This document shows positions 46,251 through 60,711 of a DNA stretch of 64,000 nucleotides, in pieces. The DNA lies in assembly GCF_004022485.1 (NCBI RefSeq), contig NZ_CP034951.1, positions 2,356,001-2,420,000 of the forward strand. Direction: 5' to 3'. Origin of the DNA: Aequorivita sp. H23M31. GTDB taxonomy: Bacteria; Bacteroidota; Bacteroidia; Flavobacteriales; Flavobacteriaceae. The notes beneath the pieces are model-generated. The model worked only from the letters and a program-made list of their open reading frames with translations, had not been told where the DNA came from and searched no databases. Every line of letters begins with the position of its first letter. Positions within the stretch are counted from its first letter, which is position 1. A program made the position numbers and the translations under genes.

Positions 46251-48140
46251 TCACTTTTCAATAAAAGACGAATTCAACTGCTTTTTAAAATTCTCATACA
46301 TTTGAGGTGCAATAAGATTCTTTTGAAGAAGAAGATCAATATAATAAGTGGTTTTAGAACCGAATTCAGCGATAGCCATTTTTTGACCGAGGGAAAAGGT
46401 ATTGCTCCTATTTTCGGGGAATGATCGGAACATCTCAAGGTTCGTTTTCATCGCATCCTCAAAATTATCGTCCTCAAACTGAATATTCATCAGGTTATAA
46501 TACACTTCATAATTCCCCTTATCCATCTCCAGGGATTTCTTGAGATTCTCAATAGCCTTCTTTCGGTCTCCCATTCCGCGGTAGGATAATCCCAGATTAA
46601 AATAGGTCTTAGCCTCAGGGTTTTCGTCTTGACTCGCTTTTAGAAAATGTTCGTGGGAACTTTCAATATCTCCCTTTAGATTGTAAAGCACCCCAAGATT
46701 ATTATGGGCAGGAGTGTGTTTTGGATAGATAGAAAGTGCTTTATTATAGAAATAGATACTTCTTTTCATCAGGGAATCCTTCTGTCTTTCTTCGAGCTTC
46801 TCTGTGGTTACTCTTTTAAATAAATCATTTGCCAAGAGCATATTCAACTTTACGGAATTCGGTGCTATTTCAAGATCTCGCTCCAATAGTGTAACCAAGT
46901 CGTGCCAATCCTGATTTCTACTAAATACTTTTACCGAACTTGCAATGATAAGAAGACCTGCGATTCCAAGGAACACAGGTTTCAGTTTTGGAAATCCATT
47001 TTCTTCTTTTGAACCGATATCAATTCTACTTAACTTCAATAGAAACCACCCAATTACAATGCAAAAACCCAAGGATGGAATATAGGCGAATCTTTCAGCA
47101 ATAATTCCCACGGCAGGTTTTACCAAATTGGCATACATTGAAATGGTAACAAAAAAGAAAACAAGTCCATAAGCCAAAACCGATTTGGTTCTGAACTTCC
47201 ATATCGTAAATACGAATAATGGAATTAGTACGATGACCCCTAGCCACACATATAGATTTTCCCACCCTACGATAGTTACATAGTCGTAGCCGTAATAACT
47301 TATTAAAGGATGTGGTACAAAAAGCAGTTTTATATAATAGAAAACAGAATAAAATGCCATTGGAATCTTTTCAAAAAAAGTAGCTCCATTGACGAACAAA
47401 GGATTTTCAATAAAAAGAAGATTCCTGCTCCCCGAAGTCTCGATAAGTTGGGTATTGATAAGCCTAAAAATAATAAGTGGCAGAAACAAGGCTCCTATCA
47501 GTTTAAGCATAACCTTTTTGGTGGCATTTTCAAAAAAGTAAACGGTCAACGGAATAACGGCCAAAAACGTTAGCGCCGATAATTTTGATAGAAACGAGAG
47601 CACCATAAAGCCTAAAACACCCACCAGCCATAATAGGCGTAAATTTCTGACATACTTAATAGCGCTACCTAATGCGAGCAAAGCAAATAGAAAAGCCAGA
47701 ATTTCATCCCTGGATTTCACGTTATCAACAACTTCTGTATGAATGGGATGTACAATAAAAAGTACCGTAATAAAAAGTGGAAGAAGCCAATGATAATTCT
47801 TAAAAAGTGAACGCAGAATTTTAAATATGAGCAAACACGTAAGAATATATAGGAAAAGATTGATAAAATGGCTTACAGTCGCATTGGCCCCAAAAAGCGA
47901 ATATTCAATAGCAAATGTAGAAAGAGTAATAGGTCTATACCCATAATTCTGTGTACTAGATTCAATATATCGTGATTTGAACAACGCAGGAATTCCGGAA
48001 ATTCCTTGGGAAACTTTTTTATTATTAACTATAACATATTCGTCATCAAAACCGTAATCATTCGAAAGAGAATTCCCATATATAAGCACGCATAACCCTA
48101 CAATTATGAATAAACTTATCTTAAAATATTTTTTCGGCAT
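46251..48140 (-). CDS. TMTC-like multi-TM protein with C-terminal TPRs
   Basis: The 629-residue protein has about ten to eleven membrane helices in residues 1-400 and tetratricopeptide repeats at about 470-600 (N-N-L-G-V-L-Y-N-L-K-G-D and Y-F-N-L-G-L-S-Y-R-G-M-G). The first extracytoplasmic loop has D32-D33 (N-D-Y-G-F-D-D-E), matching the acidic pair that lipid-sugar-dependent GT-C enzymes use. The architecture equals TMTC/DUF1736-type proteins, which are O-mannosyltransferases in animals; bacterial members are uncharacterised. Protein glycosylation is an inference. Confidence 0.75.
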   Translation of the reverse strand: MPKKYFKISLFIIVGLCVLIYGNSLSNDYGFDDEYVIVNNKKVSQGISGIPALFKSRYIESSTQNYGYRPITLSTFAIEYSLFGANATVSHFINLFLYILTCLLIFKILRSLFKNYHWLLPLFITVLFIVHPIHTEVVDNVKSRDEILAFLFALLALGSAIKYVRNLRLLWLVGVLGFMVLSFLSKLSALTFLAVIPLTVYFFENATKKVMLKLIGALFLPLIIFRLINTQLIETSGSRNLLFIENPLFVNGATFFEKIPMAFYSVFYYIKLLFVPHPLISYYGYDYVTIVGWENLYVWLGVIVLIPLFVFTIWKFRTKSVLAYGLVFFFVTISMYANLVKPAVGIIAERFAYIPSLGFCIVIGWFLLKLSRIDIGSKEENGFPKLKPVFLGIAGLLIIASSVKVFSRNQDWHDLVTLLERDLEIAPNSVKLNMLLANDLFKRVTTEKLEERQKDSLMKRSIYFYNKALSIYPKHTPAHNNLGVLYNLKGDIESSHEHFLKASQDENPEAKTYFNLGLSYRGMGDRKKAIENLKKSLEMDKGNYEVYYNLMNIQFEDDNFEDAMKTNLEMFRSFPENRSNTFSLGQKMAIAEFGSKTTYYIDLLLQKNLIAPQMYENFKKQLNSSFIEK

Positions 48141-48247
48141 TTGTAGGTTGCAGTTGATCGAGGTAAATATACACAGAAATTAAAAATACCACCTACCCGG
48201 CCTATTTTTACCCAATGAAAAACATTCGCTAAATAGGTTTGGTTTCT

Positions 48248-48255
48248 TATATTTG
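48248..48255 (+). promoter_or_regulatory. Promoter -7 box of the KASIII/ACP operon
   Basis: TATATTTG matches TAnnTTTG and lies 35 nt before the first start codon of the six-gene operon. No clear -33 TTG. Confidence 0.45.
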
Positions 48256-48290
48256 GGATTACCTTAACAAATAGGTTTAATTGCTAAATC

Positions 48291-49340
48291 TTGGTATATA
48301 TAAACGCCATATCCTATTACCTTCCTGAAAATTCTCTAGATAATGAAACAATCATTAAAGAGTTTTTTCAATATGGCGGCACGAGTGAAACTGAGATCAC
48401 TCCAAATTCCATTTCAGACAAATGTGGCATAAAAAATAGATTTATCGCAGATTTGGAGGACACCAATAAGGATCTTGGAAACCGAGCCGCGGTTAAGTTG
48501 TTTGAAGAATGGAACGTCGACAAATCAACCATAGATTATTTAATATTCGTGAGGGATGCTTCCGATTATAAAGGTCCAAATACCTCCTGCATTATGCAAC
48601 ACAATTTGGGCCTTGAACAATCTGTTGCTGCCATAGATGTTCAGCACGGATGCACGGGTTGGATTTATGGACTTAGCGTTGCAAAAGCAGTAATAATCGC
48701 CGGGATGGCGAAAAAAGTATTGATGGTCACGGCCGATGTACCCACACGAATTATCCATCCGGAGGATATAGACATCCGCGCAATATTTTCCGATGGCGCG
48801 GCAGCAACCTTAATAAGTGACGAACTCCTTGAAAATGGAATAAACACCACTATCGAGGATTTCACCTTTGGAACAGATGGAGAAGGCGAAAAAGTTTTAT
48901 ATACGGAAAGATCATCCGTAAAACATCCTGCAGATATAGCTTATTTAAAGCAATACGAACACTTGCCATCAAGACTGGAGGGCGGTCGAGTGCGAATGGA
49001 CAGCGCTAAAATTTTCCTTTTCGCGTTCAGGCTCGTACCAAAATTGATAAAGCAAGTTTTAGAGAAACATGAACTCAAGATGGAGGAAGTAGATTTCTTT
49101 ATATTCCACCAAGCCAATGGTGCAATGTTGGAATTTCTTCGAAAAAGGTTAAAAATACCCGAAGAAAAATTTATCAATACTGTAGAAAACATTGGCAATA
49201 CAATAGGTTCTACGCTACCAATTGCAATGCGGCAAATAGTAGATGAAGATAAAATAAAACCTGGAAATAAGATTATGGTTCTTGGCTTCGGAATTGGATT
49301 TTCCTGGGGCGGGACCATTTTAACCAAACAACCCAACTAA
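48291..49340 (+). CDS. FabH-like 3-oxoacyl-ACP synthase III (first copy)
   Basis: The 349-residue condensing enzyme starts with TTG (no earlier ATG keeps V-Y-I-N-A-I-S-Y-Y-L-P). The catalytic triad is complete: C121 (Q-H-G-C-T-G-W), H273 (F-I-F-H-Q-A-N) and N303 (I-G-N-T-I-G-S-T). It would condense an acyl-CoA or acyl-ACP with malonyl-ACP. It is not the housekeeping fabH context (no plsX/rpmF), and it shares a one-base stop/start overlap (TAATG) with the ACP gene, so it works with that carrier. Confidence 0.9.
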   Translation: MVYINAISYYLPENSLDNETIIKEFFQYGGTSETEITPNSISDKCGIKNRFIADLEDTNKDLGNRAAVKLFEEWNVDKSTIDYLIFVRDASDYKGPNTSCIMQHNLGLEQSVAAIDVQHGCTGWIYGLSVAKAVIIAGMAKKVLMVTADVPTRIIHPEDIDIRAIFSDGAAATLISDELLENGINTTIEDFTFGTDGEGEKVLYTERSSVKHPADIAYLKQYEHLPSRLEGGRVRMDSAKIFLFAFRLVPKLIKQVLEKHELKMEEVDFFIFHQANGAMLEFLRKRLKIPEEKFINTVENIGNTIGSTLPIAMRQIVDEDKIKPGNKIMVLGFGIGFSWGGTILTKQPN

Positions 49341-49579
49341 TGACAAATATTGAAGGATTTATAAGCACTCTGGAAACCGAATTTGACGAATTGGATCCAG
49401 GCACGCTAAGACCAGAAACAAAATTCACCGATCTGGATGAATGGAGTTCTATGCACTCCTTGATCATCATCGCTCTAATCGATACCGAATATGGAGTAAC
49501 CATAACCGGTGAAGACTTAATGAGCATAAGCAATGTGGAAGGACTTTATAACATTGTAAAATCAAGACAAACCCATTAA
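49340..49579 (+). CDS. Dedicated acyl carrier protein
   Basis: The 79-residue acidic protein has the ACP four-helix size and the prosthetic-group site D-E-W-S-S-M-H-S-L with S37 as the probable phosphopantetheine attachment (the usual D-S-L is changed to S-S-M). L-I-I-I-A-L-I-D-T-E-Y-G follows as helix II and G-E-D-L-M as the helix III region. It is coupled at both ends (TAATG with the first KASIII; stop directly followed by ATG of the second), suggesting a 1:1 working relation. Confidence 0.88.
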   Translation: MTNIEGFISTLETEFDELDPGTLRPETKFTDLDEWSSMHSLIIIALIDTEYGVTITGEDLMSISNVEGLYNIVKSRQTH

Positions 49580-50635
49580 ATGGCCTTTTTTTCAATTCAA
49601 GATATAGCCGTAAAAGGAATAGCTACGGCAGTACCGTCCAATATTGTTTCCAATTGGGATTACGATCTATTGACTGAAAGTGAAAAAAAGTTATTGGTCA
49701 AAACCACAGGTGTCGAACAACGCAGAATGGCGTTGCCAGGAATGACAACTTCCGATTTATGTTTTGAAGCAGGCGAAAAATTATTGAAAGACTTGGACTG
49801 GAAAAAAGAGGAAATTGATATTCTCATTTTCGTTTCCCAGTCCGCAGATTATTATTTGCCGGCCACTTCAATAATTTTACAGGACAGACTCGGCTTACCC
49901 AAGTCCTGTATGGCATTTGACATCGGTTTGGGCTGTTCTGGCTATGTTTACGGACTTTCTGTTATCGCAGGAATGCTGAAGGCTACAGGGCTCAAAAAAG
50001 GTTTGTTGATGGTGGGCGATATCTCAACAGTTACCTGTTCGAAAAAAGATAAAAGCACCTATCCGCTGTTTGGCGATGCGGGTACAGTTACGGCCTTGGA
50101 ATTTGAAGAAAATGCCCAACCCATCCAATTTGATCTCAGTAGTGACGGTTCAGGAAAAGATGCTATAATCATTCCTCATGGCGGGATCCGGAATTTGGCC
50201 TCACCAGAGTCATTTGTAAAAGAACAAATAGCTCCAGGCATTGTACGATCTAAAATGGAATTGGCATTAAACGGATTGGATGTATTCAATTTTTCCATCA
50301 AAGAAGTACCAAGTTCATTAAAGGAATTTCTAGAAAGGACCGAAACTACTCCTCACTCATACGATTATTTTGTGATGCACCAGGCCAATAAACTGATGAA
50401 CGAAACCATTCGAAAGAAAATGGGATTTCCACCTGAAAAAGTGCCTTATTCCATTTCAAAATATGGAAACACAAGCTCTGCTTCAATTCCCTTGACCATT
50501 GTAAGTGAATTATCCAGAAAGCTGGAAAATTCAGAAAAAAAACTTCTACTCGCTGGTTTTGGTGTAGGATTGTCCTGGGGCGCAGTATCTTTAAATTTGA
50601 AAAATGTGGTTTGCCCTGAAATATTAGAGTTATGA
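49580..50635 (+). CDS. FabH-like 3-oxoacyl-ACP synthase III (second copy)
   Basis: The 351-residue enzyme has C119 (G-L-G-C-S-G-Y), H267 (V-M-H-Q-A-N) and N297 (K-Y-G-N-T-S-S-A-S), the full KASIII triad. It is clearly diverged from the first copy, so the two probably differ in primer or perform successive or non-identical roles, perhaps as a heteromer. It overlaps the SDR gene by 4 nt (ATGA). Confidence 0.9.
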   Translation: MAFFSIQDIAVKGIATAVPSNIVSNWDYDLLTESEKKLLVKTTGVEQRRMALPGMTTSDLCFEAGEKLLKDLDWKKEEIDILIFVSQSADYYLPATSIILQDRLGLPKSCMAFDIGLGCSGYVYGLSVIAGMLKATGLKKGLLMVGDISTVTCSKKDKSTYPLFGDAGTVTALEFEENAQPIQFDLSSDGSGKDAIIIPHGGIRNLASPESFVKEQIAPGIVRSKMELALNGLDVFNFSIKEVPSSLKEFLERTETTPHSYDYFVMHQANKLMNETIRKKMGFPPEKVPYSISKYGNTSSASIPLTIVSELSRKLENSEKKLLLAGFGVGLSWGAVSLNLKNVVCPEILEL

Positions 50636-51378
50636 ATCCATTTTCTCTTGAAAATAAAACGATACTGATTACCGGAGCTTCCTCAGGGATTGGCGCGAAA
50701 ACAGCAGAAGTTGTGGCCAACCAAGGAGCGACCGTAATTTTAACAGCGAGGAATGAAGAACGATTGAATGAAGTTCTGAAAAAACTTCCAACAGGAAATC
50801 ATCAAATTATTCTGGCAGATTTAACCGATGAAGAAGCGATCAAGAAAATTGTAACCCAGATTCCAAATATTGACGGAATCGTGCATAGCAGTGGAATTGT
50901 AACGCACTTTCCCACCAAATTTATTGGAAAAAAACAAATCAGTGAAATGTTTGCGATAAATTATGAAGTTCCCGTTATCCTGACAAGTTCTCTTTTAAAA
51001 TCCAAAAAAGTAAACAAAGGTTCTTCAATTGTTTTTATGTCGTCGGTGGCATGTAATTTTCCCAATAAAGGTGGTGCCTTATATTCAGGAGCTAAAGCGG
51101 CAATCAACAGTTTCAGCAAAACTCTAGCTTTGGAACACGCACCCCAGAAAATACGAAGTAATGTGATTCTCGCTGCCATGGTAAAAACCCCACTTTTTGA
51201 TGAAGCGGAAAGAACCGTAACCAAGGAATTGATGGACAAACACGGAGCGCAATATCCATTGGGATTTGGGGAAACGGAAGACGTTGCCAACACCATTGCC
51301 TTTCTATTATCTCCCGCTTCAAAATGGATAACAGGCACGCATATAGTAATGGACGGCGGACTTACAGCAGGTATGTAA
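50632..51378 (+). CDS. SDR family reductase (FabG-like)
   Basis: The 248-residue Rossmann enzyme has the cofactor motif T-G-A-S-S-G-I-G (14-21) and the catalytic S138, Y151 and K155 (Y-S-G-A-K). An Arg after strand 2 (T-A-R-N) suggests NADP(H). In this operon it most likely reduces the 3-oxoacyl-ACP made by the KASIII enzymes to 3-hydroxyacyl-ACP. The next gene follows after 4 nt. Confidence 0.9.
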   Translation: MNPFSLENKTILITGASSGIGAKTAEVVANQGATVILTARNEERLNEVLKKLPTGNHQIILADLTDEEAIKKIVTQIPNIDGIVHSSGIVTHFPTKFIGKKQISEMFAINYEVPVILTSSLLKSKKVNKGSSIVFMSSVACNFPNKGGALYSGAKAAINSFSKTLALEHAPQKIRSNVILAAMVKTPLFDEAERTVTKELMDKHGAQYPLGFGETEDVANTIAFLLSPASKWITGTHIVMDGGLTAGM

Positions 51379-51382
51379 TAAC

Positions 51383-52294
51383 ATGGAATATTCTATAATA
51401 ATCCCGGTTTTCAACAGTGAACAATCCCTCCCGGAATTGAAGGAACGGATTATGACCGTTTTTAAGGATATTTCCGAAGAATTCGAAATTATTTTCGTCG
51501 ATGATTATTCTCAAGATAATAGCTGGAATGTATTGTTTGATTTGAAGTCCGAAAGTCCAAATAAGATACGACTTTTCCGATTAGGAAAAAACTTTGGGCA
51601 ACACAACGCCACCATCTGCGGCTTTCATCAAGCCAGAGGGAAATGGATAGTGACCATGGACGACGACCTGCAACAAGCTCCAGAGGATATTCCACTTCTT
51701 ATTGAAAGACAGAAGGAAACCGGCGCAAACGTTGTGTACGGAATTTCAAATGAAAATCATCCACTCCTTCGAAAAGTGGGAAGCAACGTCTATAAAAAAT
51801 CTACCAAACATCTTCATGGATCCTTTGGAAATGGTTCATCCTTTCGGCTTATTGATGCATCGCTGATAAACAAACTCAAAGGTCACAAACAGCAATTCAA
51901 TTTCATTGATGAAATATTGCATTGGCATACCAATTTTATTGAATGTGTCCGTGTTTCCCATGCGCCCAGAAAATATGGCAAATCCACTTATTCGGCCCAT
52001 AAACTTTGGATGCTTGCCAATAACAATACCTTAAATTATAGCAATTTGCCCCTTAAGTTAATGATGTATTTTGGAGGTGTTTTTTCCTTTATTTTTATAA
52101 TTATCGGCATGTATTTTATTGCTAAAAAGATGGTTTTTGGGGTTTCGGTTCCCGGTTTTACTGCGCTGATCGTATCCGTAAGTTTTTCGGCAAGTTTGAT
52201 GTTGTTGTGTTTTGGAATTTTGGGCTACTATCTGAAAAATATCCTTTCACGACTTAACAATCAGCCAGCGTATTTCATAAAAGAAGAATTATGA
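51383..52294 (+). CDS. Family 2 glycosyltransferase with two C-terminal TMs
   Basis: The 303-residue enzyme has a GT-A domain (S-I-I-I-P-V-F-N-S-E at 4-13, F-V-D-D-Y-S-Q-D at 38-45 and the D-D-D motif at 93-95) and two membrane helices near 220-242 and 252-280. That is the ArnC/GtrB/dolichyl-phosphate-mannose synthase layout, enzymes that move a sugar from a nucleotide onto a polyprenyl phosphate. It overlaps the GNAT gene by 4 nt. Confidence 0.9.
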   Translation: MEYSIIIPVFNSEQSLPELKERIMTVFKDISEEFEIIFVDDYSQDNSWNVLFDLKSESPNKIRLFRLGKNFGQHNATICGFHQARGKWIVTMDDDLQQAPEDIPLLIERQKETGANVVYGISNENHPLLRKVGSNVYKKSTKHLHGSFGNGSSFRLIDASLINKLKGHKQQFNFIDEILHWHTNFIECVRVSHAPRKYGKSTYSAHKLWMLANNNTLNYSNLPLKLMMYFGGVFSFIFIIIGMYFIAKKMVFGVSVPGFTALIVSVSFSASLMLLCFGILGYYLKNILSRLNNQPAYFIKEEL

Positions 52295-52935
52295 TTATCA
52301 GAAAATATGGAATCACTCTTGAAAGATTAAGGGAGGAAGATATAGAATTGGTCCGTCACCACCGTAATAGCGAACTTATAAGAAAGAGGATGTTCTATCA
52401 AAAGCTCATAACCGAGGAAGAACAAAAAAGGTGGTTCCAATCTATCAATAACGATCTCAATTATTACTTTATAATCCATCACAAAGAGAAGAAAATCGGT
52501 TTGATCCACGGCACGGTGGATTCTTTTGACAAGGGAATTTCCCGTGGTGGAATTTTTATTTGGGAACCTACCGCTATGCAATCCCACCTTCCTATTGTTG
52601 CTTCTGTTTGTGCTACGGATCTTATTTTCTTCCTTATGAAAATCAAAAAAAGTATTGCTGAAGTTCGGACAGACAATATAATTGCACTGGAATACAACCA
52701 AAAATTTGGTTATAAAATTGCAGAAGATCTTTCCGATTCCGAAAAATATGTCCTGGAACTCACTCCTGAAAACTATTTGGAAACCGCCAAACCCATTCGG
52801 GATATGGTAAAAAAACTGAGCGGAGATTTTTCGGAACTCTCTTGGGACGATATTGAATTCCCAAAGAAGAAACCGGTGGGACTTTATGAGAATTTACCTG
52901 ATTATTTGGCTGAGCATGTTTCGTTTGAATCATAA
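52291..52935 (+). CDS. GNAT acyltransferase, PseH-like
   Basis: The 214-residue protein starts with a GNAT pattern close to PseH-type amino-sugar N-acetyltransferases: L-R-E-E-D-I-E-L-V-R-H-H-R-N-S-E near residues 11-26, a W-F-Q-S-I then K-I-G-L-I-H-G strand, and N-x-x-A-L-E-Y-N-Q-K-F-G-Y (about 129-141) for the acyl-carrier side. A C-terminal extension of about 50 residues is unusual. As last gene of the KASIII/ACP operon it may transfer the ACP-bound acyl group to an amino sugar. Confidence 0.78.
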   Translation: MIIRKYGITLERLREEDIELVRHHRNSELIRKRMFYQKLITEEEQKRWFQSINNDLNYYFIIHHKEKKIGLIHGTVDSFDKGISRGGIFIWEPTAMQSHLPIVASVCATDLIFFLMKIKKSIAEVRTDNIIALEYNQKFGYKIAEDLSDSEKYVLELTPENYLETAKPIRDMVKKLSGDFSELSWDDIEFPKKKPVGLYENLPDYLAEHVSFES

Positions 52936-53038
52936 GCCTTCTCCATTCTATTGGAGAAGTCAGTAATAATATATTTTTCATTATTTTGAGAATGTTGTCT
53001 TTTTAGGCAACTTTGTTGTAAGCTTAATAAGATTTCAA

Positions 53039-53381
53039 TTGAAGGAATTTGAAAGAGATATAATCCCATTTTAAAATCACTTTTGGGATTTCTACAATAA
53101 TCTTGATCAAAAAGTTCAAGATAAGTTCGATTGGACAATTTCACTTATCGAGCGTACAAAGATAGTTCTGAAAAAATATTTCAAATATTTAGCCGGAACG
53201 GATGGGATTTGGGAGATTCGTGTTAGTTCAGGTGGGAATATTTTTCGGGGTATTCTGTTTCTTCGACCGAGGTAACATTATAATTCTTCTACATGGTTTT
53301 CAGAAAAATACTCAGAAAACACCAAGAATGGAAATCAAAAAAGCGGAAATGCTAAAAAAGAAATATTATGAAAACAAGTGA
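53039..53381 (+). pseudogene. RelE/HigB-type toxin broken by frameshift
   Basis: A frame ending in G-G-N-I-F-R resembles the Bacteroidota HigB/RelE toxins (F-W-D-F-Y-N-N-L-D-Q-K-V-Q, Y-L-A-G-T-D-G-I-W-E-I-R-V). After the R the frame stops early, but removing one G from the CGGGGT run near 53249-53254 continues V-F-C-F-F-D-R-G-N, I-I-I-L-L-H-G-F-Q-K-N-T-Q-K-T-P and ends K-K-K-Y-Y-E-N-K (TGA at 53379-53381), overlapping the antitoxin start as intact toxins do. A TAA at 53072-53074 cuts the N-terminal part. The toxin is therefore probably inactive. Confidence 0.7.
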
Positions 53382-53670
53382 AAACCCAAAAAATTGGAAA
53401 GAACACATCAATAAGAAATATGGAGAGAAAGGAACAGAGAGTAGGGAAAAATTTGAGGAGGAGTTCGATTCCTTCCGAATCGGAGTACTTATCCAAGAGG
53501 CAAGGAAAAGACAAAAATTGACCCAACTACAATTGGCCAATAAAGTAGGCACAACTAAGAATTACATATCTCGTGTGGAGAATGATGCAAGTGATATCCG
53601 ATTATCAACCTTAATGCGGATAATTCGCGAGGGGCTTGGAGGTAGTTTAAAGCTTTCAGTGGACATTTAA
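53368..53670 (+). CDS. XRE-family antitoxin
   Basis: The 100-residue protein has a C-terminal Cro/C1 helix-turn-helix: I-G-V-L-I-Q-E-A-R-K-R-Q-K-L-T-Q-L-Q-L-A, then V-G-T-T-K-N-Y-I-S-R-V-E-N (about 60-75) and an I-R-L-S-T-L-M-R-I-I strand. This is the HigA-type antitoxin layout found after RelE/HigB genes. It overlaps the broken toxin by 14 nt and is intact; it may still regulate its own promoter. Confidence 0.85.
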   Translation: MKTSENPKNWKEHINKKYGEKGTESREKFEEEFDSFRIGVLIQEARKRQKLTQLQLANKVGTTKNYISRVENDASDIRLSTLMRIIREGLGGSLKLSVDI

Positions 53671-53753
53671 TCCAATCAATACAAGATACCTAAACGAAGA
53701 TTCAAGAACGAGTAAAAACCAACAATATATAATGTAGAAACACTGATTAGTAG

Positions 53754-55544
53754 ATGATCCTTCAAATCAACATACAGTCAAAATTAACTAGAAGCTTACT
53801 TTTATTGTATGTCTTGTCATGTTTATTTACGGCATGCACTAATATTTCTGGGAAAAATGAATCAAATACTGCTTTTGACCCATCAACTCAACCAATCTCT
53901 GAGAAAATTATTGAAGCTCAAAAAGGAGTGGCTCTCAATAATCCTTTTGTTATTGCTGAACAGGATCCCGATGGTGTTTTTTGGGGATTAAGAGAAACTC
54001 TGTCCAGCAAATTAATACTAGGCTATACCTACCAAAATATCTGGGAATTCAGAGACGGTTTCGCAATCGTACAACTAAACGGCAAATTTGGACTGATTGA
54101 CAAAACAGGAAAGGAAATTATTGAACCTGCTTACAGCTATCCCAAAACGGGAATGAAATGCGGGTTTATTGCATTTGAGATAGGTTATGGTCCCACACTC
54201 ATTTTCGATTCTACCGGAAAATCCCTTATGCCCATGGTTTACGGTATGACAGGTTTTCTTCCGTGCGAAGAGCGTGTTACTTATGGACATTACAAATATG
54301 GAATGCTCAATTTTAATAGGGATACCATCTTACCTTTTAAATTCAAAAGTGCATATTTATTTCCAGAAGGATTCTGTGCTGCTTCCTTGGCGGATCAAAC
54401 AGGATATAATAGTTTATATGGTCTGTACGATCTTGATGGAAATCAGATTCTTCCTCATGTTTTTGAATATGTTGATGGTTTTTATAGTGGCCGGGCCATT
54501 GTGAAGAAAAACGGGAAGTATGGTATAATTGACGAAACCGGAAAAGAACTTTTCTACACTAATTATGGCCGCATCGACAGATTTTATAATGATTACGCAA
54601 TAGTTTATACGAAACCGGAAAATGGTGAAATAAAAGTTGGAATAATAGACAAGAACGGACATGAGGTGGTACCTGCCATTTACCAATGGTTTGAGCGTGT
54701 GTATAACTTTAGTGAAGGAATGGCTGCAATGGCCCAAAATAACAAATATGGATTTGTCGATACATCAGGAACAGTTGTTGTTCCATTTAAGTATGACAGG
54801 GTTGAATCCTTCATAAGCGGGATTGCGAAAGTTTGGGTTGGATGGCGTTACGTGGGTTACATTAACCGTAAGGGTGAAGAGATTATCTCTCCCGATTTCG
54901 AAGCGAGGGATCAAGCTAATCTCAGAAGATATCATAATAAATATATTATTGGCCTAAAAGATTCCATATACCATGTTTTCGATTATTCGGGAAAGGAGAT
55001 TACTTCTTTAAATTATGAGAGAGTTGGAGAGTTTGATACAAATGACAAATCATTTCTTGTCTCAACTAATGGAAAGTGCGGAACCTTAGACTCGAATTTT
55101 CAGGTTAAAATTCCGATTGAATATGAATCCCTTGAAATTATTTTTCCCGATAGAATTGCCGCCGGCAAAAACAACAAAATTGGTATTATAGACCGGGAAG
55201 GAAAAGTAATTTCATCTTTTATATTCGACTGGATAGCCCCATTTCAGGACGGATATAAGAATGGCTTGGCGTTAGTTGGAACAGCAGGAAAGACCGGGTT
55301 GATAAATGGATATGGCAACCTTATTATTCCAGCAGAATACGATGAAATTGGGGAGTTTTCTAATGGTCTGGCCATAGTTAGGAAAAACGATAAATATGGC
55401 TTTGCAAACCCCAAGGGGAGAGAAATCGTACCAACAATCTATGATAAGATTGAACCTTTTAACGGCTTCTCGGCAGAAGTTACTTTGAAGGGAGAAACAT
55501 ATCTCATTGATGGTTCAGGGCATCGGATTATAGAAGAATACTGA
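53754..55544 (+). CDS. WG-repeat lipoprotein
   Basis: The 596-residue protein has a lipobox F-T-A-C with C28. About ten WG repeats fill residues 80-590, each with the pattern G-(L/I)-I-(D/N)-x-x-G-x-x-(I/V)-(I/V)-P-x-x-Y-D, for example K-F-G-L-I-D-K-T-G-K-E-I-I-E-P-A-Y and K-Y-G-F-V-D-T-S-G-T-V-V-V-P. WG proteins are surface or periplasmic and of unclear role. There is no operon partner; a hairpin lies near 55595-55617 downstream. Confidence 0.85.
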   Translation: MILQINIQSKLTRSLLLLYVLSCLFTACTNISGKNESNTAFDPSTQPISEKIIEAQKGVALNNPFVIAEQDPDGVFWGLRETLSSKLILGYTYQNIWEFRDGFAIVQLNGKFGLIDKTGKEIIEPAYSYPKTGMKCGFIAFEIGYGPTLIFDSTGKSLMPMVYGMTGFLPCEERVTYGHYKYGMLNFNRDTILPFKFKSAYLFPEGFCAASLADQTGYNSLYGLYDLDGNQILPHVFEYVDGFYSGRAIVKKNGKYGIIDETGKELFYTNYGRIDRFYNDYAIVYTKPENGEIKVGIIDKNGHEVVPAIYQWFERVYNFSEGMAAMAQNNKYGFVDTSGTVVVPFKYDRVESFISGIAKVWVGWRYVGYINRKGEEIISPDFEARDQANLRRYHNKYIIGLKDSIYHVFDYSGKEITSLNYERVGEFDTNDKSFLVSTNGKCGTLDSNFQVKIPIEYESLEIIFPDRIAAGKNNKIGIIDREGKVISSFIFDWIAPFQDGYKNGLALVGTAGKTGLINGYGNLIIPAEYDEIGEFSNGLAIVRKNDKYGFANPKGREIVPTIYDKIEPFNGFSAEVTLKGETYLIDGSGHRIIEEY

Positions 55545-55676
55545 TTTACGTTTTACTTAACCAAAATTAAAAGATTGGTAAGAACTCGAAAAAACCAAAG
55601 GTCTCAGAGATCTTTGGGGTTTGGAGACGAAACGATTAAGAGTCGACAGTAATAAAATTCCGAAATTCCTCCCATC

Positions 55677-56684
55677 TCAATTCTTATAATTACGATCCAA
55701 AGCTATACTCTTAACGCTCAACACCAGTTTTCGGACTGCAAATGGAAAGTTGAAAAACAAGGTAATTATTCCCAAAATAGATTTCACTTTTAATTTCGAG
55801 AAAGGATATTTCATTTTAGCTGAAGAAGCAACTTCTGGTTTATTAAAATGATATCCCAGTTGCGATGCGACATCGTGAGTAGCAAATTCGATATGGTCAA
55901 TCTGTTTTGCGGTGAGTTTTGTTTTCCATCCTTCAATCATTTTAACATCGATGGGTTTCATAAGGCTTTCATGCTTTTTTGTAATGGCTTCAGCATAGTC
56001 GTCAAAACGCTTTACCATTCCCTTTCGATATTCCATCATTTTCTCATCAAATTCAATTTCCAGAAAACGACAGAGCGATTTTACAGTTTCCTTAGGGTGT
56101 AAAACCAGGTCTTCATATTTGAGCAGATAATAATTATTGGGGTACTGGATTTTTAGGTTTAGGAGATTTTTGTTGTATCTAGACCATAAATATCCTACCG
56201 CAAGTGCATCCTTTCTTTTAAAGGTATTTATCTGGCCACTACCTGCGCCACGTGGGTCGCGGACCATGTGGATTAATTTGGCTTCAGGATTTATTCGCAT
56301 CATCCGTTCACAGAAATTGGAATAAATTGGATGCTTATCGCCGATCAATTCAATGTTTTTCGTTGTAAAAGATGCATTATAGCTAACCCTAATCCGGTTA
56401 CAGGCTTCATTAAAATTTTTTATTACTGGTTCTTGGAGAAAAGACGCCTCAACCACTTTACGCGGAACTTTCCACATAAGACGAAAGGGACGATCCACAT
56501 AAACATCATCTATAAAATTTTTTACGGTTTTTTCGTCCCAAGTTGTTTTAAACCCATATTTACGTTCCAAATGTAGAACGAAAAATGATTCAGGAGGAAC
56601 GACAATATTTGGATGGGCATCAAGAATATTGGCCAGGAGTGTGGTTCCAGACCGGCCAAGCGCCATCACGTAAAAATTTCTCAT
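55677..56684 (-). CDS. Sulfotransferase family protein
   Basis: The 335-residue protein has the P-loop-like 5'-phosphosulphate site G-R-S-G-T-T-L-L at 10-17, followed by N-I-L-D-A-H-P-N-I, and the 3'-phosphate region M-V-R-D-P-R-G-A-G-S near 140-149, with Y-E-D-L later. It transfers sulphate from PAPS to an acceptor, probably a carbohydrate or lipid. It is coupled to the next gene upstream by TAATG. Confidence 0.88.
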   Translation of the reverse strand: MRNFYVMALGRSGTTLLANILDAHPNIVVPPESFFVLHLERKYGFKTTWDEKTVKNFIDDVYVDRPFRLMWKVPRKVVEASFLQEPVIKNFNEACNRIRVSYNASFTTKNIELIGDKHPIYSNFCERMMRINPEAKLIHMVRDPRGAGSGQINTFKRKDALAVGYLWSRYNKNLLNLKIQYPNNYYLLKYEDLVLHPKETVKSLCRFLEIEFDEKMMEYRKGMVKRFDDYAEAITKKHESLMKPIDVKMIEGWKTKLTAKQIDHIEFATHDVASQLGYHFNKPEVASSAKMKYPFSKLKVKSILGIITLFFNFPFAVRKLVLSVKSIALDRNYKN

Positions 56685-57736
56685 TATGAATCAATAAATG
56701 GCATACTCGGTTTGCTCTTTAGTTCGCGAAGCCAAATAGGCAATTTGTAATAAAGACGGAGCTTTGCCATTTCACACCGTAAACTTATGGGAATTACTTG
56801 ATTTTTGGTAAAAATTCCCGTTGTAAAGTAATATCCATATTTTTCTGCCAAACCTCCACTATAAGTTTCTAAGGTGCTTATTTCCTTGGAGGAAAGTGTC
56901 CTTTCCCATTTATTCTTAAATGTAGTATTAAGTGGTTTGGAAAGATTTTTATGAACTTTGGCAATTCCTATCTCCCTAATTTTTCTGATTTTTTCGTTTG
57001 GTGCACCATCCAAATATGTTGAGATAGCTTTTTCGATCCGCATGTGATAGGTAAGCATATCCGGATGAAATTCAAGATCGAAAAAATCGATTAAACGTTC
57101 CAGTTCTTCTTTTGGAGAGTCGAGTAAATCTTCATAACGGATGGTTATAAAGTTGTTGGGATTTTCATCTTTTGATTTCTCAATCTCCATATTGGTCATC
57201 ACCCAACTCATACCTAACTTTTTAACGCCTACTTTCTTATTAAGACTCCGTATGGAACTAACATTGCCCCTATAATCCCTAACAAGATGAATAAACTTTG
57301 CATTTGGATATACCTCTTGCAGCATCGGAATCATGATGGCATAAATAGGATTTTTATCCACGATTAGTTTTATAGTTTCCTTATTATGAAAGGACTTTGA
57401 AGAAACATAAACTTGTTTACAAATTTCTCCGTAGGTGGTGCTTTCTGGCAAAGCCGAAATACGCTCATTAAGGGCTTCCTTATCCAATTCCCAAAAGAGT
57501 TCTATTTTCTGTTCCTTAAACAAATCCTCTTGAAATTGAATTTTCAGTTTTTCATCCCAACAAACCTCATTTTTATATTTGCTCATTAAATGAAGAACAA
57601 ATCTGGATTCCAAAGGAGCACAAATATTGGGATGAGAGTCCAACATTGTTTGTAATAAAGTTGTTCCCGACCGATCTTTTGCTACCAAAAATGCAATAGG
57701 AGCTTGGGTGGGAGTTAATTTTTTCGATAAAGCCAT
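56684..57736 (-). CDS. Sulfotransferase family protein (second copy)
   Basis: The protein has 350 residues from the ATG at 57734-57736, which was chosen because the upstream part lacks family similarity. It carries K-D-R-S-G-T-T-L-L-Q-T-M-L-D-S-H-P-N-I and L-V-R-D-Y-R-G-N-V-S-S (PAPS 5' and 3' sites) and R-Y-E-D-L-L. It is a distinct paralogue of the downstream neighbour, and both are transcribed together leftwards, divergent from the aminotransferase. Confidence 0.88.
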   Translation of the reverse strand: MALSKKLTPTQAPIAFLVAKDRSGTTLLQTMLDSHPNICAPLESRFVLHLMSKYKNEVCWDEKLKIQFQEDLFKEQKIELFWELDKEALNERISALPESTTYGEICKQVYVSSKSFHNKETIKLIVDKNPIYAIMIPMLQEVYPNAKFIHLVRDYRGNVSSIRSLNKKVGVKKLGMSWVMTNMEIEKSKDENPNNFITIRYEDLLDSPKEELERLIDFFDLEFHPDMLTYHMRIEKAISTYLDGAPNEKIRKIREIGIAKVHKNLSKPLNTTFKNKWERTLSSKEISTLETYSGGLAEKYGYYFTTGIFTKNQVIPISLRCEMAKLRLYYKLPIWLRELKSKPSMPFIDS

Positions 57737-57867
57737 GCTAATTTTTAATTTTTTGGCAGGGATAATCAAATATATACCATTCTGTTTCGTCAATTACAAC
57801 TTTAAAGAAACTATTAGCATAAATAATCTTACATTTGAAAGTATAACCTACCTATCTGCCCCTAAAA

Positions 57868-58986
57868 ATGATTCCGCTTCACCAACCTTTTATTTCTGGG
57901 AATGAAATTAAATATATTGAGGAGGTCATTAAAAGTAGAAACCTTTCCGGAAATGGGAAGTTCACCAATCTATGCCATCAGTTTCTTCAACAAGAATTCA
58001 ATTTCGATTACGTAAAACTTACGGATAGCTGCACGGCGGCCCTGGATATGGTATCCATTCTTCTTAATATTTCTCCGGGAGATGAAGTTATTGTACCTTC
58101 CTATACTTACATTACCTCTGCCAATCCCTTTGTTTTAAAAGGAGCCAAAATTGTATACGCAGATTCACTATCGGATAACCCGAATATCGATCCCGCTCAA
58201 CTTCCAAAGCTTTTTACCGAAAAGACAAAAGTTATCGTCGTAATGCACTATGGCGGAATTGCTTGTGAAATGGATGAAATTATGGAAATTGCCAATTCCC
58301 ATAATATATATGTAGTGGAGGATGCCGCCCACAGTCTTGGAGCTACTTACAAAAATAGATTTTTGGGAAGCATTGGCCATTTTGGGGCTTTTTCTTTTCA
58401 CACCACTAAAAACGTGACATCCGGACACGGCGGATTATTGGTAATCAACGACGAGCAATTTTATGAGAGAGCGGAAATAATCTGGGAGAAAGGCACCAAC
58501 AGAAAAATGTTTCTTGATGGAGAAGTAAATAAATACGAATGGTATGATGTGGGACTCTCCTTTTATCCTTCTGAAATTACTGCCGCTTTCCTTTGGGCAC
58601 AACTTCAAAATTTGCTGATGATTAATGCCGAACGGCTAAAATCATGGGATTATTACTATGAAGTTTTAAAGAATATACCCCAAATAAAACTGCTGGAAGT
58701 CAAGGATTATTCTTTACACAACGCCCACCTCTTTTGCTTAAAAACTCCAAATAGGGAAAAAAGAAATATTTTGATTTGTGAGCTTAAAAACAATGGAATA
58801 ATGGCTACTTTTCATTATTTACCGTTGCATTTAAGTCCGTATGCAAAGACTGAAAACACTATAAAACTGAAAGAAGCGGAAGATTGGGCGGATAGTTTGG
58901 TACGAATTCCCTTATATTATGATATACGCACAGAAGATCAGGATTTTATTATCCAAAAAATAAAATCCATTGTACAAAACTGGTAG
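57868..58986 (+). CDS. DegT/DnrJ/EryC1/StrS sugar aminotransferase (RffA/WecE-like)
   Basis: The 372-residue PLP enzyme places an amino group on a 4-keto nucleotide sugar. It begins I-P-L-H-Q-P-F-I-S-G-N-E, characteristic of the RffA/WecE group (dTDP-4-amino-4,6-dideoxygalactose). K181 in S-F-H-T-T-K-N binds PLP; E-D-A-A-H-S-L-G (151-158) supplies the Asp for the pyridine N. It is followed by the ABC exporter (3 nt). The amino sugar could be an acceptor of the PseH-like GNAT 5 kb upstream. Confidence 0.92.
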   Translation: MIPLHQPFISGNEIKYIEEVIKSRNLSGNGKFTNLCHQFLQQEFNFDYVKLTDSCTAALDMVSILLNISPGDEVIVPSYTYITSANPFVLKGAKIVYADSLSDNPNIDPAQLPKLFTEKTKVIVVMHYGGIACEMDEIMEIANSHNIYVVEDAAHSLGATYKNRFLGSIGHFGAFSFHTTKNVTSGHGGLLVINDEQFYERAEIIWEKGTNRKMFLDGEVNKYEWYDVGLSFYPSEITAAFLWAQLQNLLMINAERLKSWDYYYEVLKNIPQIKLLEVKDYSLHNAHLFCLKTPNREKRNILICELKNNGIMATFHYLPLHLSPYAKTENTIKLKEAEDWADSLVRIPLYYDIRTEDQDFIIQKIKSIVQNW

Positions 58987-58989
58987 CTA

Positions 58990-60711
58990 TTGATATCACT
59001 TTCCAAAGTCATAAAATCCATTATCTGGCCCCAACGTAAAATTCTACTATTTGGGGTTATACTGATAATCCTAAACAAAGCAGCCACTTTGGTCTTACCC
59101 GGAGTCTTCAAATATTTTGTGGACGATGTGGTGATTCAAAAAGATCCTTCAATACTAAACAAAATATTGCTGGTAGCGGGGATTGCGGTAATCGTTCAGG
59201 CAATAACATCATATTTATTAACGAAGATTCTCAGTGTTCAGGCCTACAAAGCTATTGCGGAATTACGAGTCAAGGTACAGAAAAGAGTATTTCAGTTTCC
59301 CGTTGGATATTTTGAAAAACGGAAATCTGGTGAAACCGCCAAACGTGTAATGGACGATGTAGATGGCCTAAACGTAATTGTAGGTAACGGAATGGTACTT
59401 TTTATTGGCGGTATAATTACTTTCATTTTTGCATTTGCTATTTTGTTATATATAAATGTAAAGCTCACCATATATGTGCTAATTCCCCTTTTTGTTTTGG
59501 GTTTTGTAACACTCAAGGCCTACAAATATGTACGTCCTATTTTCAGGAAAAGAAGACAGATCGAGGCCGAAGTTCATGGAAGATTAATCGAATCCCTAAG
59601 CGGCATCCATATTATTAAAGCTTACAATGCCGAAAAGTATGAACTGAATATTTTCGAAATTGGGGTAAATCGAATTTATGAATACTACAATAAATCCCTG
59701 ACGGCGAAGGCATTGATTTTAGCTGGAGCCACCTTAATCTTTGGAATGTCTGCTTTAACGGTATTATGGATTGGCAATAGCATGATTGTAAATAATGAAC
59801 TGTCCATTGGGGAGTTTTTAAGCTTTGCACTTTATTTAGCTTTTTTAATTGCTCCGATAATACAGATTGGTAATGTGGGCAGTTTGTTGACCGAAGCATT
59901 TGCTGGCCTAGACAGAACGGAGGAGCTTCTTAAAACTGAAACCGAAATAGATACGAAGCGTAATTACCAATTAAAGGAGATCGCCGGTGATATAAAATTC
60001 CAAAATGTCTGCTTTAGCTATCCTGAAGGCGGCCAAGTGCTTTTTGATATAAATTTTGAAGCAAGCCCTGGGAGCATAACCGCGATAGTTGGAAGTTCGG
60101 GAGCAGGGAAAAGTACTATAGCAGCTCTCCTAACTTCGCTCATTACACCTCAAAAAGGATTAATTACGATAGATGGTATCGACTTGGCAACCGTAAACCT
60201 AGATAGCTATAGAAGTCATCTTGGAATTGTACTTCAGGACGATTTTCTTTTTGAAGGAACTATTAGAGAGAATATCCTTTTCTCACGACCGAATGCTTCT
60301 GAATTGGCACTTAAAGAAGCCGTCAAATCTGCATACGTAAATGAATTTACCGACCGGTTTGAAAATGGACTTGAAACCATCATTGGAGAACGGGGCGTAA
60401 AACTCTCGGGTGGGCAGAAACAGCGTATATCCATTGCAAGAGCACTGCTAGCAGATCCAAAGATTTTAATTTTGGATGAAGCGACTTCCAACCTAGATAT
60501 TAAAAGCGAACAAATGATCCAAAAATCATTAGCAACTTTAATCGCGGGAAGAACTACTTTTATTATTGCACATCGACTGAGCACGATTCAAAAAGCGGAT
60601 CAAATCTTGGTAATTGACGACGGCGCCATTGTGGAGCGCGGCAATCACCAAGATTTAATGGAGGCTAAAGGTTCTTATAGTGAATTGGTTACTTTACAAT
60701 CTCGGATTTAG
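58990..60711 (+). CDS. ABC transporter, MsbA-like half-exporter
   Basis: The 573-residue protein starts with TTG. Six membrane helices (about 17-40, 58-80, 132-155, 160-180, 240-265, 275-300) precede the nucleotide-binding domain: Walker A G-S-S-G-A-G-K-S-T at 368-376, Q-loop, signature L-S-G-G-Q-K-Q-R, Walker B I-L-I-L-D-E-A-T-S and H-switch I-A-H-R-L-S-T. It functions as a dimer, probably exporting lipid-linked or polar-lipid cargo. Its stop overlaps the convergent DUF3078 gene's stop by 4 nt. Confidence 0.95.
   Translation: MISLSKVIKSIIWPQRKILLFGVILIILNKAATLVLPGVFKYFVDDVVIQKDPSILNKILLVAGIAVIVQAITSYLLTKILSVQAYKAIAELRVKVQKRVFQFPVGYFEKRKSGETAKRVMDDVDGLNVIVGNGMVLFIGGIITFIFAFAILLYINVKLTIYVLIPLFVLGFVTLKAYKYVRPIFRKRRQIEAEVHGRLIESLSGIHIIKAYNAEKYELNIFEIGVNRIYEYYNKSLTAKALILAGATLIFGMSALTVLWIGNSMIVNNELSIGEFLSFALYLAFLIAPIIQIGNVGSLLTEAFAGLDRTEELLKTETEIDTKRNYQLKEIAGDIKFQNVCFSYPEGGQVLFDINFEASPGSITAIVGSSGAGKSTIAALLTSLITPQKGLITIDGIDLATVNLDSYRSHLGIVLQDDFLFEGTIRENILFSRPNASELALKEAVKSAYVNEFTDRFENGLETIIGERGVKLSGGQKQRISIARALLADPKILILDEATSNLDIKSEQMIQKSLATLIAGRTTFIIAHRLSTIQKADQILVIDDGAIVERGNHQDLMEAKGSYSELVTLQSRI

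Follow-up and report, generated by a model that had tools for sequence, protein, structure and literature searches.

What do six closely packed genes in the genome of Aequorivita sp. H23M31 make, and where is their product delivered? The genes occupy 48291-52935 on the plus strand of the 64,000-nt stretch analysed here (hereafter the window; positions 2,356,001 to 2,420,000 of NZ_CP034951.1, the host genome being one 3.68-Mb contig). A sequence-only reading had described them as an operon that builds an acyl group on a dedicated carrier and transfers it to an amino sugar. Our analysis places them in a system that recurs in Bacteroidota and that, judging from its enzymes, probably makes a small sugar bearing a short fatty-acid-like group; a neighbouring membrane glycosyltransferase resembling the animal TMTC proteins may attach this acyl-sugar to exported proteins. 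The acyl module of the sequence-only reading held in outline, and the interpretation was incomplete because the TMTC-like gene, which lay outside its coordinates at 46251-48140 and is the likely acceptor machinery, was not considered.

All six open reading frames (ORFs) were confirmed on the same strand, with successive junctions of a 1-nt overlap, no gap, a 4-nt overlap, a 4-nt gap and a 4-nt overlap. The first gene encodes a KASIII-type 3-ketoacyl-ACP synthase (KS1; 48291-49340) with the catalytic residues Cys121-His273-Asn303 and a TTG start that fits the family N-terminus MxYINAI in the KS1 alignment. It is followed by a dedicated acyl carrier protein (ACP; 49340-49579) with Ser37 in a WSSM motif, a second KASIII (KS2; 49580-50635; Cys119-His267-Asn297) and a FabG-like 3-oxoacyl-ACP reductase of the short-chain dehydrogenase/reductase family (SDR; 50632-51378), with TGASSGIG and YSGAK in its translation. 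The last two genes encode a family 2 glycosyltransferase (GT2; 51383-52294) with a DDD motif and C-terminal hydrophobic stretches, whose nearest named models are ArnC and PgfS, and a GNAT acyltransferase with a PseH-like fold (52291-52935). Pfam and NCBIfam scans agreed with the earlier domain calls (ACP_syn_III and ACP_syn_III_C in both KASIIIs, adh_short_C2 in the SDR, Glycos_transf_2 in the GT2, and Acetyltransf_3 in the GNAT just at the cut-off with 25.4 bits), except that the ACP had no Pfam match and a weak NCBIfam ACP match (19.7 bits, cut-off 71).

We then compared gene neighbourhoods. A scan of genome contigs with the single KS1 sequence confirmed no relative, and a KS1 alignment was used instead, with the best 80 loci kept. 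The GNAT was found in 4 of 299 Flavobacteriaceae genomes at E 1e-15, one of them weak (G087), and in 76 of 395 genomes of a Bacteroidia class sample at E 1e-18; the four weakest class matches (G678, G378, G366 and G401) had neither KS2 nor ACP nearby. We scored 94 loci (76 class stretches, 15 from the scan of named genomes, L031, L035 and the window) and dereplicated them by dropping GNATs below 120 bits and merging those at least 90% identical (5 groups, 7 loci). The 79 loci left comprised 39 type I loci (KS1, KS2, SDR, GT2 and GNAT all present), 3 partial loci, 29 type II loci (KS2, GT2 and GNAT, with the SDR below threshold or absent; ACP detected in 27) and 8 classed as unresolved. Two type II rows, L043 and L059, are really type I-like, their SDR being under threshold or shadowed. 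The genes stood in the window order on one strand in 38 of the 39 type I loci, the exception having GT2 and GNAT swapped, which argues that the operon is more than chance. The ACP was detected in at least 33 of the 39, a lower bound because the ORF filter missed it in six type I loci, the window's own included. Loci from short contigs entered the counts unaltered, so that all neighbour counts are lower bounds; sulfotransferase-like genes flanked 21 of the 39 type I loci, LpxO/OlsC-like genes of the Asp/Asn-hydroxylase family 20, and Cupin_8 genes 7.

The gene at 46251-48140 on the minus strand, divergent from KS1, encodes a GT-C membrane domain (residues 1 to ~440) followed by C-terminal TPR repeats, the latter confirmed by domain scan. 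In an alignment of 13 TMTC-like proteins, D32, D33, Y68-R69-P70 and R350 were invariant, and E349-R350-F-A-Y353 of the window protein matches the ERxxY motif (M7). The domain order of TMTC proteins, their strict DD motif of the first loop (M1) and ERxxY were thus all found, and of the SHKSYRP motif (M2) just YRP was retained, in 13 of 13. Matches to DUF1736 were obtained in 8 of the 13 relatives at E 0.1 (best E 4.7e-7). When the GT-C part of the structure model was compared by VIA-align, it matched AglB, STT3, Pmt4 and ArnT. TPR proteins filled the matches both of Foldseek with the full GT-C/TPR model and of a profile search of PDB sequences; the GT-C half alone, searched by sequence in PDB, gave no match. 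The protein thus resembles the O-mannosyltransferases of the animal TMTC family, and the transfer of a sugar from a polyprenyl phosphate to protein Ser/Thr would be its putative reaction.

The TMTC-like gene was present in 23 of the 39 type I loci, including 14 of the 27 contributed by the class sample, for which genomes were chosen on the GNAT and irrespective of TMTC; in 13 loci it was divergent from KS1 and less than 250 nt away. The idea that it is always adjacent was rejected on this count. TMTC matches numbered 1-11 per genome in 20 GNAT-negative TMTC genomes and 1-16 in 12 GNAT-positive genomes, so that chance presence in a 20-kb stretch would be around a few percent; the binomial p for 14 of 27 was 7e-15 at a chance rate of 3% and 6e-8 at 10%, both rates being estimates. 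The same tie was seen at the level of whole genomes. In the class sample, a TMTC-like gene was found in 76 of 76 GNAT-positive genomes (four with a weak GNAT) versus 132 of 319 GNAT-negative ones (Fisher 3e-25), and in Flavobacteriaceae in 8 of 299 genomes, among them all 3 operon genomes (Fisher 1.3e-5), both tests ignoring shared ancestry. The Flavobacteriaceae operon genomes scored 801, 661 and 645 bits, and all others at most 193. In a 100-row TMTC tree, which like the KS trees below was made by a quick method from a selected sample, one subclade (SH-aLRT 98) held 28 of 29 operon-linked rows (G194 counted as linked), 18 of 34 GNAT-positive rows without type I linkage and 2 of 37 GNAT-negative rows. 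Because unlinked GNAT-positive rows fall in this subclade, sampled lineages without adjacency (families f38 and f46) also carry the operon-type copy.

The acyl module itself appears intact. The catalytic Cys-His-Asn residues were invariant in 31 KS1 rows and 16 KS2 rows, in line with the earlier claim of two complete, divergent KASIIIs, and the WSSM serine of the ACP was invariant across 15 rows. A Cys-His-Asn KASIII, an ACP with a modifiable serine and a ketoreductase, all features of ACP-dependent N-acyl amino-sugar pathways, are therefore present in the operon. Identity with housekeeping FabH was rejected, since the two KASIIIs scored 214 and 200.8 bits with TIGR00747 (cut-off 292.1) and 20 FabH rows formed a separate clade. 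In the KS tree, KS1 of type I loci fell in a common clade with KS1 of sugar-cluster-like loci (SH-aLRT 91), inside which the type I sequences did not form one branch, and KS2 of type I, type II and sugar-cluster-like loci likewise shared a clade (SH-aLRT 100), the sugar clusters being sorted by gene resemblance without full annotation. These shared clades suggest that the acyl modules of the window and of the sugar clusters likely have a common origin and two outlets.

Downstream of the operon, the window carries two sulfotransferase-like genes on the minus strand (ST1, 55677-56684, and ST2, 56684-57793; both with Sulfotransfer_3 matches), a DegT-family gene for a WecE-type dTDP-4-amino-4,6-dideoxygalactose transaminase (57868-58986, plus strand) and a gene for an MsbA-like ABC exporter identified by Pfam and NCBIfam, a possible flippase (58990-60711, plus strand). 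The GC content of the block genes ranged from 0.357 to 0.403 versus 0.376 for the window, and no composition break was seen. The transaminase passed both NF008687 (490.5 versus 375 bits) and TIGR02379 (439.7 versus 434.85 bits), and the genome encodes RmlB (475 bits, cut-off 365), which makes dTDP-Fuc4N a plausible acceptor sugar here. Two relatives keep the arrangement. In G194, of the same family, one 9.9-kb contig carries KS1 (cut), ACP, KS2, SDR, GT2 and GNAT, then both sulfotransferase-like genes on the other strand, the WecE-type gene and the MsbA-like ABC gene (56.6% identical to that of the window). Its TMTC-like gene starts 61 bases from the end of a separate contig, and the operon contig begins inside KS1, which fits adjacency lost in assembly without proving it. 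In the congener G692, a few small ORFs after atpG lead into the block, which runs from the TMTC-like to the WecE-type gene with both sulfotransferase-like genes and stops where the contig ends. The GNAT was found in 2 of 14 congeners searched, the window genome included; in 9 GNAT-negative congeners, none of the block genes was seen after atpG in flanks of 13-16 kb.

We also searched for acceptor proteins among 49 unassigned ORFs of at least 600 aa in the 42 type I and partial loci, plus a few others, with many flanks cut. A protein with a sorting domain of the type IX secretion system (T9SS) was found in at least 11 of 43 loci (the 39 type I, the 3 partial and L043), namely L035, L042, L043, L047, L048, L049, L172, L179, L190, L194 and L197, and several of these proteins have Ig_7 or PKD domains. 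No T9SS sorting-domain protein was seen among the window proteins scanned; elsewhere in its genome, 7 matches to CHU_C exceeded the cut-off. The T9SS proteins make secreted proteins candidate acceptors only, and lipid acceptors for the GT-C enzyme are possible.

From the observed gene content and order, the intact catalytic residues, the folds and the genome-level tie to TMTC, we infer a pathway in which all substrates, the length of the acyl group and a protein as acceptor are proposals. On the dedicated ACP, KS1 and KS2 would lengthen a short acyl chain, whose keto group or groups the SDR would reduce to give a 3-hydroxy- or 3,5-dihydroxyacyl-ACP; the presence of two KASIIIs could be explained by a 3,5-dihydroxyhexanoyl product, which would take two rounds each of condensation and reduction. 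The GNAT would use this acyl-ACP to acylate a sugar nucleotide at its 4-amino group (in the window probably dTDP-Fuc4N, formed by the WecE-type enzyme from the RmlB product), and the ArnC-like GT2 would load the sugar onto undecaprenyl phosphate. After the sugar-lipid has crossed the membrane, possibly with the ABC protein as flippase, the TMTC-like enzyme would transfer the sugar to its acceptor, most likely Ser/Thr of exported proteins, for which T9SS-sorted Ig/PKD-type proteins are candidates. Sulfotransferases, and in relatives also the LpxO/OlsC-like hydroxylases, may decorate the chain or the sugar. For the block at 46251-60711, we judge the chances evenly balanced that it loads a lipid carrier with an N-acylated amino sugar, which the TMTC-like enzyme then transfers to an extracytoplasmic acceptor, the substrates and a protein acceptor being proposed. 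The broader suggestion, that a TMTC-like enzyme in a widespread Bacteroidota system puts an ACP-built, short hydroxyacyl, possibly sulfated amino sugar on T9SS Ig/PKD-domain proteins, is made tentatively, as one less likely than not to hold.

Several observations weigh against this pathway. WecE-type genes adjoin just 2 of the 39 type I loci (G692, fetched later, is outside the 39), which leaves an amino sugar unsupported as a general feature, and amino-sugar supply by the locus itself was rejected as a general property. The DegT partner proposed by the sequence-only reading therefore holds for the window, G194 and G692, and not for the type I loci at large; the ABC exporter, likewise near 2 of 39, failed as a general partner. 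The TMTC-like gene was absent from the fetched flanks of 16 of the 39 type I loci. The copies behind the TMTC profile were all linked to operons, and scoring covered just 3 or 4 candidates in each genome, so that GNAT-negative genomes may hold more TMTC genes than were called. The TMTC copy of G127 (L035) lies outside the operon-type subclade, and the GNAT-negative G311 and G355 lie inside it. In the window protein, read by eye in the alignment, the glutamate of the KE(T/Q) motif (M4) is absent (K186 is kept, with Leu next), and D-Y stands in place of the D-W motif (M5) of animal TMTCs; Pfam PF08409 (DUF1736) gave no match to it at E 0.1. T9SS neighbours occur in a minority of loci. Finally, ABC-2/ABC export genes lie beside L225, the one type II locus scanned, which consists of ACP-KS2-GT2-GNAT and lacks KS1 and SDR; a DegT gene and PhyH dioxygenases occur there too.

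The Arn pathway (ArnB, ArnA, ArnC, ArnT) comprises an aminotransferase, N-acylation, GT2 transfer to undecaprenyl phosphate and GT-C transfer, and the window block would follow the same sequence of steps. The acyl group of the Arn pathway is formyl and transient, its acceptor is lipid A, and it has no ACP module. The GT-C enzyme of the window might put the same acyl-sugar on a lipid (lipid A, lipopolysaccharide core or a glycolipid) in the manner of ArnT, and the structural match to ArnT, a lipid A enzyme, counts against a protein acceptor. We regard this as rather unlikely: the C-terminal TPR, the DD and ERxxY motifs and the retained YRP are features of TMTC O-mannosyltransferases, and secreted T9SS proteins accompany the loci listed above. 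A polysaccharide repeat unit (O-antigen or capsule) would be a further outlet, as in Flavobacterium psychrophilum, where wfpC (KS), wfpD (ACP), wfpE (KS), wfpF (reductase) and wfpG (PglD homologue) are predicted in PMC6519341 to produce 3,5-dihydroxyhexanoyl and attach it to Qui2NAc4N, a 4-amino sugar of the O-antigen. By description, and not by sequence, the window shares with wfpC-wfpG two 3-ketoacyl-ACP synthases, a dedicated ACP, a ketoreductase and an N-acyltransferase, so that the two-KS, ACP and ketoreductase logic of wfpC-F is common to both, and related KS1/KS2 pairs occur in sugar-cluster-like loci. A protein search for the F. psychrophilum KASIII found none by name among the 120 matches listed, most of them nameless, and the comparison therefore rests on PMC6519341 and on the F. 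johnsoniae locus L075. In L075, the sole such locus scanned for its acyltransferase, a PglD-like acyltransferase follows KS1, whereas the acyltransferase of the operon is a GNAT and not of the PglD type found in wfp, and it is accompanied by an ArnC-like GT2 and a TMTC-like GT-C gene; Wzx, Wzy and a polysaccharide glycosyltransferase set were not found among the block's own genes. This makes a polysaccharide outlet improbable for the window.

It could also be that the GNAT merely acetylates and that the ACP-bound hydroxyacyl group goes elsewhere, for example into a lipid or small molecule that is sulfated and leaves the cell through the ABC protein. The GNAT had been called PseH-like, and its structure model (pLDDT 93) does have Helicobacter pylori PseH among its best matches; it scored 52 bits with the PseH model TIGR03585, below the cut-off of 93.1, and the likeness is one of resemblance only. 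Many of its structural matches are acetyl-CoA enzymes, and the frequency of sulfotransferase and hydroxylase genes beside type I loci also suits this reading. The persistence of KS2, GT2 and GNAT, mostly with the ACP, in the type II rows without KS1 or SDR (two being threshold misses) argues against it, and we consider it slightly more improbable than a polysaccharide outlet. KASIII enzymes are common to DarB-type pathways, and on this ground the operon might make an aryl-polyene, flexirubin or dialkylresorcinol-type lipid, an outcome that the sequence-only reading had named as its own refutation. DarB-type models scored 24-59 bits against cut-offs of 450-550, and no KASII-type, DarA or aryl-precursor gene was found among the block genes scanned, so that this reading was rejected and keeps hardly any credibility. 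The GT2, in turn, reached 145.3 bits with the ArnC model NF007986, below the cut-off of 529.

The pathway that ends on a TMTC-like enzyme combines known acyl-sugar and GT-C pathways, and this combination is its new part. In Pseudomonas syringae, VioS, VioR and an ACP (KASIII, reductase and carrier) serve N-(3-hydroxy-1-oxobutyl)viosamine on flagellin; the island (vioA, vioB, vioT, vioS, vioR, acp) resembles the window block in its aminotransferase, acyltransferase, KASIII, reductase and ACP and, by the proposed pathway, in its 4-amino-6-deoxy sugar, and differs in having one KASIII and the 1,173-aa transferase VioT, with neither a polyprenyl GT2 nor a GT-C enzyme in the gene list of PMC3927599. 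The analogy with these genes and with wfpC-G supports the earlier proposal of a dedicated ACP/KASIII/SDR module of the hydroxyacyl-for-sugar kind. Animal TMTC1-4, as described in PMC7801869, share with the window protein the GT-C fold, the C-terminal TPR, the DD and ERxxY motifs and the YRP of SHKSYRP; they differ in the KET glutamate and D-W motif, and the donor here is probably not mannose. Animal TMTCs O-mannosylate Ig-like cadherin domains, which the suggested Ig/PKD acceptors echo. General Bacteroidota O-glycosylation at D-S/T likewise concerns exported proteins of the same phylum, but attaches an oligosaccharide likely built on undecaprenyl phosphate, and the main text of PMC12871550 has no words starting with "acyl", "sulf" or "TMTC". 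Among the matches listed, titles and abstract openings of open-licence literature gave no account of the present system; such silence is weak evidence. The reading joins an acyl-sugar module of the kind found for O-antigens and flagellin with a GT-C enzyme similar to animal TMTCs, and predicts a modification of exact mass. The calculated residue masses are 231.1 Da for an amino-deoxyhexose with 3-hydroxybutyryl and 275.1 Da with 3,5-dihydroxyhexanoyl, each 80 Da higher if sulfated; the former equals the nominal mass of a fragment that the demethylated mVio glycopeptide loses in PMC3927599. If true, the reading would provide a bacterial system for studying a TMTC relative and a new surface-protein decoration in nearly one-fifth of the Bacteroidia sample, where 76 of 395 genomes have the GNAT (four as weak matches whose loci lack KS2 and ACP).

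Type II loci occurred in several class families (L202, L204, L206, L213, L215-L226, L228 and L230-L239), with KS2-GT2-GNAT and mostly the ACP. A WecE-type gene was found in 6 of the 29 type II rows, including L059; this metagenome-assembled genome, labelled Moraxellaceae, has a like operon with the WecE-type gene and a PMT-type GT-C gene (PF02366) in the fetched flank, where no TMTC-like gene was seen, and its label may be wrong. In family f46 (L173, L175, L176, L177, L179 and L185), a gene of about 694 aa follows the operon; E1 dehydrogenase/transketolase domains were detected in 6 of 49 large neighbours, probably these same genes. Genes of about 820-880 aa recur in L191-L195, L209 and L212, often with genes of about 86 aa and 470-490 aa near the operon, and from length alone this trio may be an MBOAT/ACP/SGNH-type acyl-transfer set. 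Between the GNAT and sulfotransferase genes of the window, at 53368-55544, lie an apparent XRE-type helix-turn-helix gene and a gene for a 596-aa WG-repeat protein; this pair is absent from the G692 and G194 blocks and is therefore probably a later insertion. Identities between the window and G692 (L333) were 64% for KS1, 69% for the TMTC-like protein, 70% for ST2, 77% for ST1, 78% for the ACP, 79% for the GNAT, 81% for WecE, 85% for the GT2, 87% for the SDR and 88% for KS2. Divergence between these sister species is thus far greater in KS1, the TMTC-like protein and ST2 (64-70%) than in KS2, SDR and GT2 (85-88%), a pattern that would fit faster change in starter choice and on the acceptor side.

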